Shown piece by piece: positions 8,947 to 12,721 of a stretch of DNA of 64,000 nt (the stretch's first letter is position 1; every line of letters begins with the position of its first letter). The position numbers and the translations under genes are program-made. Source of the DNA: Candidatus Izemoplasma sp. (GTDB lineage Bacteria > Bacillota_I > Bacilli_A > Izemoplasmatales > Izemoplasmataceae); contig SLOP01000013.1 of the NCBI GenBank assembly GCA_007132465.1, positions 1 to 64,000 on the forward strand, read 5' to 3'. A model generated the notes under the pieces. The model was given only the letters and a program-made list of their open reading frames with translations. It had not been told where the DNA came from and ran no database searches.

Positions 8947-9096
8947 GTGTATGTTAAGGAGTAAGTGTACCCTTGACATTTTGTTGGCGTTATGAAATCG
9001 CAAGGTGGTGGGGTTCATGCGGTGCGTGTTTTTTCACGGATTGTCCGTTGACAAAATGCGAAACGTATCTTGCGAGTGTGAAAACGATGCGCTCTA

Positions 9097-9105
9097 TGTT
9101 ATAAT
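9097..9105 (+). promoter_or_regulatory. cdaA promoter (extended -10)
   Basis: TGTTATAAT about 40 bp before the cdaA start, facing away from nrdJ. The 257-bp nrdJ-cdaA gap holds only these divergent promoters and no convincing small gene. Confidence 0.55.
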
Positions 9106-9146
9106 TTAGGGGAAGTTGGCCCCGTGATTCGACAAGGAGGACTGCG

Positions 9147-9881
9147 ATGGAAACCGTGGACGTCATCATCATTCACCTGTATTTGCTTGCGCTGTTTGCC
9201 ACGGCCGTCAAAGCAAAAGCATCGACCGCATTGTATCGGCTCTTGAAGCTGTTTGTGGTGGTCTTTTTTGCGTTGGTTCTCATCGAAGCATGGACGGGGC
9301 TTTGGTCCTTTCACCTGATGTCTTGGGTGAAAATCGCGCCGCTCATCGTGGTGCTTATCATCATGGTGCAGACAGAAATCCGCGATTTGCTTAAAGCCAT
9401 CGGTATCCGGGTTGGGCTGTTGCCTTCAAACACCATCGAAGAGAACGTTAAGGAAGAAGTGTTAAGAAGCGTGGCCTATTTGGCAACGCATAAGATTGGC
9501 GCGTTAATTACGTTTGAACGTGCGATGTCGCTTGATGAGTTCATTCAACCGGCGTTTCCGATTCATGCGCCGGTGCGCGCGGAGTTGTTGTCGACGATTT
9601 TTGTGCCCACCACGCCGCTGCATGATGGTGCCGTCATTATCAAAGGCAACGAGATTGTCTGCGCCGGGACCTACTTTCCCCCGACTGAGAAACACGACGT
9701 ACCCAAAAACCTTGGGTCTCGTCACCGTGCTGCCATTGGCATCAGTGAAGCGACTGATGCATTGACTGTGATTGTCAGTGAACAAACCGGGTTTGTGAGC
9801 GTGGCGGTTGACGGTTATCTCGACCAAGACATCAGCAAAGAGTCGCTGGTGCTTTATTTGGAAAAATACCTGCAAAACTAG
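9147..9881 (+). CDS. cdaA: Diadenylate cyclase CdaA (c-di-AMP synthase)
   Basis: Membrane-bound enzyme joining two ATP into c-di-AMP, the potassium/osmolyte and envelope second messenger of gram-positive bacteria. The 244-residue protein has about three N-terminal membrane helices (roughly 5-20, 32-48, 57-75) and a DAC domain with both catalytic motifs, DGA (160-162, in LHDGAVII) and RHR (192-194, in GSRHRAAIGISE). The N terminus is somewhat shorter than in Bacillus (about 273). ATG 9147 follows AAGGAGGA. Its usual partners cdaR and glmM do not follow; a PAS/degenerate-GGDEF membrane protein does, 21 bp downstream. Confidence 0.96.
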   Translation: METVDVIIIHLYLLALFATAVKAKASTALYRLLKLFVVVFFALVLIEAWTGLWSFHLMSWVKIAPLIVVLIIMVQTEIRDLLKAIGIRVGLLPSNTIEENVKEEVLRSVAYLATHKIGALITFERAMSLDEFIQPAFPIHAPVRAELLSTIFVPTTPLHDGAVIIKGNEIVCAGTYFPPTEKHDVPKNLGSRHRAAIGISEATDALTVIVSEQTGFVSVAVDGYLDQDISKESLVLYLEKYLQN

Positions 9882-9902
9882 TGTCGCCTTGGAGGGAGTT
9901 CC

Positions 9903-11045
9903 ATGGATTATGTGTTGCTCGCTGTGTTCATCACGTGGGCCATCCTGCTTATCATCAAACGGCTTAGAGCCCATGCTGGTGTGCTTGAAACCCTGCTAAT
10001 TTTGGCTGTTTTCGGCGTTTTTGCGGCCGATGAATACGCTGGGTATGTGATCATTGATAGTGGTATTTTATCATGGATTGCATATGCGGGACTTGCGATA
10101 AGCGTGTTTTTTTTCCGGGCCGAGTGGTTTGTACCAAAACGGATTGAAACCGATCGCGTGGCACGTTTAAAAAAAGACCATGCGCGTTTAGAAGGCTCGT
10201 ATGAGTCGCTTAGAAAACGTTTCATCGCCACCATTGAACTGATGCGTGATGGGATGATTTTCCGCACCGAAGACGGGGAGATGTTCATCACCGACCGGTT
10301 GTTGTCGGTGATTGGCGAAACGGAAAACGCCACGACCCAACAGGCCTACGAAAAACACATTCATGCCGATGACATCCACGGTGTGAAGGATGCGCTCAAT
10401 CGTTTGACCAAAAAGCATCCGCAATATGCCCTGAGTTACCGCTATCGTACCGCTAAGGGCGATGTGTGGATTAAAGAACACGGAAAAATGATCCTTTATG
10501 AAGGCAAAAAGATGATTATCGCCACGGCCGAAACCTTGGACGTAAAGCGGTACCCGCACAGCGAAGTTGATTTGTTAAACTCGATGCGCATCGACCACGA
10601 GTTGCTCGAGCGGCTGCAGAGTTTGAACCGGGTTAAAGAACCATATCACTTAATCTTTTTCGAACTATCGAACATCCCCGCCATCAATCGCCTTTACGGT
10701 CGGGACATCGGGGACTTGATGATGGGTGAGTTTTTAACCAAGCTGCGGTACCATTTTGTGCGTGATGAAAACAGCGTCTATCGCATCACGGGCATTCGTT
10801 TTGCGATGATTATTCGCGATGATAGAAAATACCAAATCCTTGAGCGCGCCTTGAAACACGGTGGGGAGTTGTTAAACTTTGAGATGAAATTTGGCGGCGT
10901 CGAAGAAAATATTTACCCCCATTTTGGCATCCAAAAAATCACCATGTTCGATGAACCCGTCGATGAGTTAGTCGCCCGGACAACCAAAGCACTCGACATC
11001 GCCATCAGCGACGACACCCATGAAAACTACTTTGTGATTGGATGA
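9903..11045 (+). CDS. Membrane protein with PAS and degenerate GGDEF domains
   Basis: A 380-residue signalling-type protein. There are two or three membrane helices (about 3-20, 28-50 and 54-72), a short charged coiled segment (80-107), a PAS-like sensor domain (about 108-212, ending in a WIKEHGKMI-type strand) and a GGDEF-fold region (about 247-380). The signature that should read GG(D/E)EF is TGIRF at 296-300, following VYRI, so diguanylate cyclase activity is very unlikely; the flanking LYGRDIGDLMMGEFLTKLR helix shows the fold is kept. The start ATG 9903 has GGAGGG before it. It directly follows cdaA and probably shares its transcript, which suggests a role in c-di-AMP control, comparable in layout to GdpP (PAS plus degenerate GGDEF) but without a DHH phosphodiesterase domain. 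Function is inference. Confidence 0.75.
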   Translation: MDYVLLAVFITWAILLIIKRLRAHAGVLETLLILAVFGVFAADEYAGYVIIDSGILSWIAYAGLAISVFFFRAEWFVPKRIETDRVARLKKDHARLEGSYESLRKRFIATIELMRDGMIFRTEDGEMFITDRLLSVIGETENATTQQAYEKHIHADDIHGVKDALNRLTKKHPQYALSYRYRTAKGDVWIKEHGKMILYEGKKMIIATAETLDVKRYPHSEVDLLNSMRIDHELLERLQSLNRVKEPYHLIFFELSNIPAINRLYGRDIGDLMMGEFLTKLRYHFVRDENSVYRITGIRFAMIIRDDRKYQILERALKHGGELLNFEMKFGGVEENIYPHFGIQKITMFDEPVDELVARTTKALDIAISDDTHENYFVIG

Positions 11046-11049
11046 TACG

Positions 11050-11580
11050 ATGAACGAGAAACCTACCTATCGCCGGCACGCACTCGCTGTGCGAAAGGCG
11101 ATGTCAGCCACGCAACGCGACGCCGCGTCGCGCACCATTACCGACGCGCTATCGCGGATGTTTAAGGCCCGGGGCATCACGACCATCGCCGCGTACTACC
11201 CCATGCGTGGTGAGTTGGACATGGTGGCTTTAAAGGCCGATTTCACGCTTTTTCTACCTAAAGTAATCGATGGCCGTATCGCTTTTTATCAAGACACCGG
11301 CGATTACACCGAGGGGAATTTTAACACCACGGTGCCGGCCCACGATGACCAAACCGACCTCGGTGAGATTGACGCGGTTATTGTGCCGGGATTGTGTTAC
11401 GATAAACAAGGGTATCGAGTCGGTTATGGGAAAGGATATTATGACGACTTACTCAGCCGTTATGAAGGCATGAGCGTCGGCGTGTGTTACGCCGATTTGG
11501 TGTTTGACTCTCTACCTATCCAACCGCACGACCGTGCGGTTGATGTCCTGTTAACCGAACGCGGAACGATGAAAGGATGA
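11050..11580 (+). CDS. 5-formyltetrahydrofolate cyclo-ligase
   Basis: Converts 5-formyl-THF to 5,10-methenyl-THF with ATP, recycling the by-product made by GlyA. The 176-residue protein has the basic N-terminal segment YRRHALAVRKAM, the folate-site region AYYPMRGELDM and the C-terminal signature GYRVGYGKGYYDDLL. ATG 11050 lies five bases after the preceding stop with only a weak ribosome site; TTG 11038, four codons upstream and overlapping the PAS/GGDEF gene, is an alternative. It probably sits in the cdaA operon and precedes ispD, with which it almost overlaps. Confidence 0.92.
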   Translation: MNEKPTYRRHALAVRKAMSATQRDAASRTITDALSRMFKARGITTIAAYYPMRGELDMVALKADFTLFLPKVIDGRIAFYQDTGDYTEGNFNTTVPAHDDQTDLGEIDAVIVPGLCYDKQGYRVGYGKGYYDDLLSRYEGMSVGVCYADLVFDSLPIQPHDRAVDVLLTERGTMKG

Positions 11581-11585
11581 TGCGT

Positions 11586-12230
11586 ATGTACACGGCCATT
11601 GTGGTGGCCGGGGGCGTGGGTAACCGCGCCGGCTTTCCCCACAACAAAGTCCTCCATGAGATTCATGGAAAACCGCTGGTTGCGTATGCACTCGAAGCGT
11701 TTAACGCGGATTCCGACTGCGCCGAAGTCGTGTTGGTGGCACACCGCGACGACCTCGGTGTGATGGCTTTGCGTTTTAGTGATTTGGTCGATGACGTGGT
11801 GCCCGGGGGTGTGACCCGACAAGACAGCGTAATGAGCGGTCTAGAGCGCGCTCGCAGCGACATGGTCATCGTGCACGATGGAGCGCGGCCGTTTGTGCCG
11901 GTGCTTGAGCCACTCAAACAGGCGGCGTTAACGCATGGGGCCGCCACGTTTGCCATTCCGGTCAACGAAACCGTTAAACGCGTGGTTGAGGACGTGGTGA
12001 TTGACGATGTCGATCGCACCAACCTCATGCTTGTGCAGACCCCACAAGCGTTCATGCGAACGCTGCTGGTGGAGGCTTACGAACGCGTGGCCGATCGTGT
12101 GTTTACGTGTGAAGCTGGCCTTGTCACAAGCGTTTTACACCATCCGGTTAAGGTGGTGCTCGGGGATCGACGCAACGTGAAATTGACAACGCCCGATGAT
12201 GTGGTGTTGTTGGCGTGTGTTTTGTCATGA
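11586..12230 (+). CDS. ispD: 2-C-methyl-D-erythritol 4-phosphate cytidylyltransferase
   Basis: Third step of the MEP isoprenoid pathway: MEP plus CTP gives CDP-ME. The 214-residue nucleotidyltransferase shows the CTP-binding start VVAGGVGNRAGFPHNK (the family usually has AAGxGxRMG), VHDGARPFV, and VNETVKRV ... LMLVQTPQAF. Three in-frame ATG codons (11577, 11580, 11586) are possible; AAAGGA at 11572 gives the best spacing for 11586. It overlaps ispF by ATGA, so the two enzymes are translationally coupled. Together they show that isoprenoids are made by the MEP route in this organism. Confidence 0.9.
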   Translation: MYTAIVVAGGVGNRAGFPHNKVLHEIHGKPLVAYALEAFNADSDCAEVVLVAHRDDLGVMALRFSDLVDDVVPGGVTRQDSVMSGLERARSDMVIVHDGARPFVPVLEPLKQAALTHGAATFAIPVNETVKRVVEDVVIDDVDRTNLMLVQTPQAFMRTLLVEAYERVADRVFTCEAGLVTSVLHHPVKVVLGDRRNVKLTTPDDVVLLACVLS

Positions 12231-12721
12231 TGCGCGTTGGTCAAAGCCGCGATACGCACCGGCTGAAACCTGGGAAGTGGCTACGTTTAGGCGGTGTAGA
12301 CATCGCTTCACCCGTTGAAGTGGTGGCGCATAGCGATGGCGATTGTTTGCTGCATGCGTTCGCCGAAGCCATGCTGGGGGCCTTGGCCCTTGGCGATTTG
12401 GGCACACACTTTCCCGATACTGACGCGGCGCACCGTAAGCTTGATTCAGGAAAAATCCTCAGCGCCGTCTGTGGCATGGTGAAAGACGCGGGCTACACGC
12501 TTGTCAACGCAGACAGCACCGTGCATCTTGAAGTCCCGACACTGGCACCGAAAATCGATGCGATGCAGCGACGTGTCGCCACGCTCCTTGATGTGCCAAT
12601 ATCGCGCGTCTCGATAAAAGCGACCACCGGGGAAGGCGTCGGACCGGTGGGTCGTGGCGAAGCCATCACGTGCGACGCGGTGGTGCTGCTTGAACGAAAG
12701 AAAGGTGATACACATGATTGA
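12227..12721 (+). CDS. ispF: 2-C-methyl-D-erythritol 2,4-cyclodiphosphate synthase
   Basis: Cyclises CDP-ME 2-phosphate to MEcPP with release of CMP, using a Zn2+ at a trimer interface. The 164-residue length is normal. Zinc and substrate residues are visible in SRDTHRL (D and H of the usual DxH), AHSDGDCLLHA and GDLGTHFPDTD; the C-terminal KATTGEGVGPVGRGE matches the CDP-binding loop. The start overlaps the ispD stop (ATGA at 12227); ATG 12230 is also possible. The end overlaps the yutD start by 8 bp. Confidence 0.94.
   Translation: MMRVGQSRDTHRLKPGKWLRLGGVDIASPVEVVAHSDGDCLLHAFAEAMLGALALGDLGTHFPDTDAAHRKLDSGKILSAVCGMVKDAGYTLVNADSTVHLEVPTLAPKIDAMQRRVATLLDVPISRVSIKATTGEGVGPVGRGEAITCDAVVLLERKKGDTHD

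Follow-up and report, generated by a model that had tools for sequence, protein, structure and literature searches.

A membrane PAS and degenerate GGDEF protein encoded beside cdaA in Izemoplasmatales and related Bacilli, and its possible role as a regulator of CdaA

The gene cdaA encodes an essential synthase of c-di-AMP, and its usual neighbour is the regulator gene cdaR. The level of c-di-AMP is harmful if too high or too low, and CdaR and GlmM, the best-known direct regulators of CdaA, tie this nucleotide to the cell wall. Which protein occupies the position of CdaR where no CdaR is encoded, and could it act on CdaA? The question is raised by a stretch of 64,000 nucleotides (the window; contig SLOP01000013.1, positions 1 to 64,000) from a genome of Candidatus Izemoplasma sp., in which cdaA is followed by a gene for a membrane protein with PAS and degenerate GGDEF domains, referred to here as the partner. 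The genome comprises 1.43 Mb in 45 contigs, is 99% complete and is closest, among named genomes, to MAGs that carry the label Candidatus Izimaplasma.

The cdaA locus and the anatomy of the partner protein

The cdaA gene (9147..9881, forward strand) encodes a protein of 244 residues with three N-terminal hydrophobic helices followed by a DAC domain (PF02457, E-value 2.8e-38, 130.6 bits versus 27). Its score with the CdaA family TIGR00159 (183.9 bits) is slightly below the cut-off of 188.8; the protein carries the DGA and RHR motifs after the three transmembrane helices, as expected of CdaA, and both motifs are invariant or almost so in the CdaA proteins of 12 relatives. It is the sole DAC gene of the host genome. 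The intergenic region (9019..9146, forward strand) that separates cdaA from a divergent ribonucleotide reductase gene contains the ribosome-binding site AAGGAGG and a promoter-like sequence, GTGAAA-16-TATAAT (9078-9105), of a kind no commoner than in shuffled sequences.

The partner gene (9903..11045) lies on the same strand with its ATG 21 bases after the stop codon of cdaA, and strong ribosome-binding sites precede both open reading frames. Its end is overlapped by a 5-formyltetrahydrofolate cyclo-ligase gene (11038..11580, forward strand), followed on the same strand by ispD and ispF (11577..12721), two overlapping reading frames at 11577-12230 and 12215-12721 that were named by eye from conserved sequence and whose homologs were found among relatives with an iterated profile.

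The partner comprises 380 residues and matches PAS_3 (1.1e-7) and GGDEF (1.7e-9), each with a score exceeding the Pfam gathering threshold. An AlphaFold2 model built on an alignment of 70 rows (mean pLDDT 89, pTM 0.51) has three predicted transmembrane helices, at residues 3-23, 27-46 and 53-69 (residues 3-69, 9909..10109), which coincide with hydrophobic sequence. They are followed by a long helix with a conserved ESLRKRFI stretch (residues 79-113, 10137..10241) that links the membrane to a PAS-like domain (residues 117-212, 10251..10538), and by a GGDEF-like domain that extends to the C-terminus (residues 223-380, 10569..11042). Searches of the model with Foldseek return PAS-GGDEF proteins and lone GGDEF domains, and the GGDEF part superposes on the solved GGDEF domain 3mtk with a TM-score of 0.78 and an rmsd of 2.4 A. 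The order of domains that had been proposed from the sequence alone is thus borne out by Pfam, AlphaFold2 and Foldseek, and the predicted GGDEF fold, the absence of which would have spoken against that proposal, is present. The anatomy is conserved in relatives and is therefore not a product of chance. The N-terminus of the partner is probably outside the cell and the C-terminus of CdaA inside; homology between the two transmembrane bundles was searched for and none was found.

The GGDEF fold has lost the residues of catalysis. The signature is replaced by TGIRF (residues 296-300, 10788..10802), and the metal-binding DxD loop of diguanylate cyclases by ELS (residues 254-256, 10662..10670); in an alignment with eight GGDEF proteins of the host genome, the stretch FFELSNIP corresponds to LIDIDDFK in one of them. 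Among 71 members of the partner family none has the GG[DE]EF signature, the third position of which is isoleucine or leucine in 68, and the metal-binding aspartate of the LDIDDFK loop is retained in one. That an active diguanylate cyclase merely adjoins cdaA would agree with the fold of the protein, and with these losses throughout the family we reject it as extremely improbable. The sequence-only reading had already judged that the protein could not be a normal diguanylate cyclase, and the same holds for its family.

The transmembrane helices, PAS domain and degenerate GGDEF domain follow one another in the partner as in GdpP, the parts and their order being alike, which raises the possibility of a GdpP remnant that lacks the hydrolase part. 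The open reading frame 9903-11045 indeed encodes no DHH/DHHA1 domain, as had been noted. However, an intact GdpP gene has been identified beside rplI-dnaB elsewhere in the host genome (L050, contig C7), and GdpP is also found in four congeners. In profile comparisons the partner matches ordinary GGDEF domains at 97% probability (4e-11), whereas the comparison with GdpP gives a probability of 0.6% and no alignment of the GGDEF domain, and the partner homologs hold a synteny of their own over several families. Descent from GdpP is therefore rejected as most improbable, and the kinship with its sensory half that had been suggested earlier is not supported. The host genome also encodes two tandem DHH-DHHA1 proteins (NrnA/DhhP-like; L046 and L054, contig C30) beside a gene similar to Na/phosphate cotransporters.

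Conservation of the pairing and distribution of CdaR

The order Izemoplasmatales was represented by 90 genomes from 29 genera. With a loose cut-off, matches to the partner have been identified in 87 of these genomes, a few being weak hits to other PAS/GGDEF proteins, and in all 29 genera; CdaA is present in 78 of the 90. Both genes could be placed in 76 genomes, and in 69 of them the partner is found downstream of cdaA, with the two genes on one contig and one strand. The remaining seven have the two genes on separate contigs, and no Izemoplasmatales genome has them on one contig in any other arrangement. The two genes are directly adjacent in 16 of the 69 genomes and are separated by a gap of 2.1-3.3 kb in the other 53. 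The earlier suggestion of a pairing with cdaA is thus upheld well beyond the genus, and the direct adjacency seen in the window is, within this order, a local feature. The gap is occupied, in the loci that were read, by one gene for a protein of about 700-790 residues with C-terminal hydrophobic helices (for example L027:2670-4979, L115:2713-5046 and L118:3418-5760, among others). This protein is barely matched by Pfam, its model resembles carotenoid desaturase/phytoene desaturase and amine oxidases (FAD fold), and it is missing from between cdaA and the partner in the genus of the window.

The partner family extends to other families of the class, designated here by our own numbers, in a sample of 395 genomes. 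Two hits in family f10 are GGDEF-EAL-like proteins and were removed from the count; in the cdaA loci of f10 (L195, L196) glmM follows cdaA directly with no cdaR between, and the genomes have no match to YbbR, the domain of CdaR. Outside the Izemoplasmatales, 56 genomes from five families carry the partner family, mostly as a form of 480-540 residues with an extra PAS domain (transmembrane helices, PAS, PAS, degenerate GGDEF). A DAC gene is found upstream on the same strand and within 3.5 kb of the partner in 51 of the 56, comprising all 21 genomes of f12, all six of f16, 17 of 18 in f22, both of f5 and five of nine in f18. The two genes are apart in three genomes of f18. The neighbourhood of cdaA is therefore kept across the order and in five further families, so that the lack of conservation which would have counted against the pairing is not what the relatives show. 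Most carriers encode the partner beside cdaA, the exceptions being family f3 of the Izemoplasmatales and part of f18.

In f5 and f18 a gene beginning like that of methylglyoxal synthase (mgsA; MKIALIAHDxKK, recognised by eye) is sometimes located between cdaA and the partner or close to them. Also by eye, a protein of about 190-200 residues, possibly ankyrin-like, is encoded directly 5' of cdaA in these families and is preceded by the gene of a very large protein (loci L172, L173, L177, L179, L197 and L198).

No match to YbbR has been detected anywhere in the host genome, in agreement with the sequence-only reading, nor in any of the 108 partner-carrying genomes. YbbR is present in 117 of the 395 genomes of the class, the partner being absent from all of these at the cut-off applied, and in the four YbbR loci of the class that were read the gene order is cdaA-cdaR-glmM. 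About 170 sampled genomes have neither the partner nor YbbR at the cut-offs used. In a tree of 71 CdaA proteins all those linked to CdaR form one clade (96/85), and the mutual exclusion of partner and CdaR is accordingly a single historical split and not a repeated replacement; a Fisher test of the exclusion was for this reason set aside as independent evidence. The paired lineages occupy deep branches of the same tree, which argues for a long-lasting pairing. The CdaR genes found in two genomes of f18 and f7 (G362 and G344, respectively) cluster within the clade of f13 and are probably contamination, and have not been accepted as genuine; the contigs with contaminant-like cdaA of the CdaR-linked type are L217 and L218 (G344) and L219 (G362).

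FtsW/RodA is encoded in 115 of the 117 CdaR genomes and in 17 of the 108 partner genomes. The swap of neighbours is thus associated with the loss of the wall machinery without being identical to it, and the 17 genomes exclude wall loss as its sole cause. Many small Bacilli that are wall-less, or related to such bacteria, encode next to cdaA a membrane sensor with PAS and dead GGDEF domains in place of CdaR.

Proposed action on CdaA and tasks beyond it

From the features computed above, we infer that the two genes are most likely co-transcribed and that the partner most likely contacts and regulates CdaA. Stated in full, the proposal that the partner, a membrane-bound PAS/dead-GGDEF protein, regulates CdaA and takes the position that CdaR has elsewhere has, in our estimate, about an even chance of being correct. 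It is favoured by the linkage to cdaA inside and outside the order, by the absence of CdaR from every partner genome, by the tight spacing and the ribosome-binding sites in the window, and by the parts of the protein, since a transmembrane bundle, signalling helix, PAS domain and dead GGDEF domain are those of a membrane regulator. Precedents exist in CdaR, GlmM and GdpP. CdaR acts through the transmembrane region of CdaA, and inhibition by GlmM results from a block in the assembly of active CdaA oligomers (PMC8573169, PMC10243994); the PAS and/or dead GGDEF domain of GdpP influence the GdpP enzyme (PMC10243994).

By the proposed mechanism, the partner would be made together with CdaA and would sit next to it in the membrane by means of its three transmembrane helices. 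The PAS domain would sense a small ligand or a redox state, and/or the dead GGDEF domain would bind a nucleotide, and the sensed state would alter the pairing of the cytoplasmic DAC domains of CdaA and hence the amount of c-di-AMP. The parts of the partner and its position suggest that such an action could take place through contact within the membrane or at the DAC domains. Sensing of heme or redox by the PAS domain, which had been raised earlier, is a guess.

A special form of this explanation, unlikely in our judgement, is that the dead GGDEF domain serves as a receptor for GTP, c-di-GMP, (p)ppGpp or c-di-AMP and relays their state to CdaA, by which c-di-GMP or nucleotide pools would be linked to c-di-AMP. 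Despite the lost catalysis, N262, which aligns with the base-contacting asparagine of diguanylate cyclases, is retained in 66 of the 71 family members and R267 in 65, and these residues suggest that a nucleotide-binding face may persist. A weak ATPase activity of the dead GGDEF domain of GdpP (PMC10243994) is consistent with such a role. The host genome encodes 13 further GGDEF proteins, a rich c-di-GMP repertoire for its size, and all eight that were read have intact GGDEF/GGEEF motifs. On the other hand, the RxxD pattern of the I-site has no conservation in the partner sequences read, and in 34 of the 71 family members a second nucleotide contact, D271, is replaced by N, S, T or E.

The gene order also admits an explanation that does not involve CdaA. 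The block cdaA-partner-ispD-ispF-yutD is conserved as a whole, and the constancy of ispD-ispF equals that of cdaA, so that cdaA is not the only constant neighbour. The partner could have a separate function within the operon, such as sensing or scaffolding in connection with the downstream isoprenoid (ispD-ispF) or folate genes or with the membrane, and its linkage to cdaA would then simply reflect the conserved block. ispD-ispF lie 3' of the partner in 48 of the 53 loci read, including all seven loci of f3 (L121, L122, L123, L124, L125, L131 and L132), a family in which no DAC gene has been found in any of the seven genomes and where the partner is kept between maf and ispD-ispF. The f3 partner is under purifying selection similar to that on its neighbours, with dN/dS values of 0.07-0.17 versus 0.04-0.10 for ispD and 0.09-0.18 for maf, and therefore has at least one task independent of CdaA. 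Against a role without any action on CdaA stand three loci of f12 (L164, L165 and L181) and one of f1 (L128), which lack ispD-ispF at this place and keep cdaA with the partner, and the CdaR genomes of the same class, which have no such protein. We consider this explanation possible, though on the whole improbable.

If the partner does regulate CdaA, it would reveal what the synthesis of c-di-AMP responds to in the absence of a wall, would provide a family of pairs for the study of a dead GGDEF domain as a regulator, and may connect both cyclic dinucleotide systems. The f3 genomes, with the sensor present and the synthase absent, offer a natural control. A broader proposal, which we put forward tentatively, is that a large share of the Mollicutes-like Bacilli possess a second, non-homologous operon for the regulation of CdaA, in which a dead diguanylate cyclase serves as a membrane sensor and makes the synthesis of c-di-AMP respond to c-di-GMP, GTP or a PAS signal, at the place where the CdaR-GlmM system with its coupling to the cell wall sits elsewhere.

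Comparison with known systems

No description of a pairing of cdaA with a PAS/dead-GGDEF partner has been found in the open-access literature, and what is new about the locus is that another membrane protein is paired with CdaA, a sensor carried together with the synthase by bacteria without FtsW/RodA and by some that have it.

The partner resembles CdaR in being encoded after cdaA on the same strand, in its membrane anchor, in its presence in most genomes of its own clade and in the expected action on CdaA. It differs in having neither YbbR domains nor a match to them, in its three transmembrane helices as compared to one in CdaR, in the predicted cytoplasmic location of its PAS and GGDEF domains, those of CdaR being outside, and in the absence of glmM beside it. 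With GlmM the partner may share the setting of CdaA activity through the assembly of DAC domains; GlmM is, however, a soluble enzyme of cell-wall precursor synthesis, whereas the partner is a membrane sensor, and most genomes that encode it lack FtsW/RodA.

GdpP/YybT shares with the partner the order of transmembrane helices, PAS and degenerate GGDEF domain as well as the connection to c-di-AMP. It possesses the DHH/DHHA1 part that the partner lacks, and a heme-binding PAS domain of which the partner has the fold; the partner is linked to a synthase and not to a hydrolase, has a GGDEF domain that resembles ordinary diguanylate cyclases, and occurs in the same genome as a true GdpP. Degenerate GGDEF effectors of c-di-GMP systems, as exemplified by the GGDEF half of LapD, likewise combine a membrane or PAS sensor with a non-catalytic GGDEF fold. 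The partner differs from the LapD type in having no EAL domain and no conserved I-site, and in having a c-di-AMP synthase as its neighbour.
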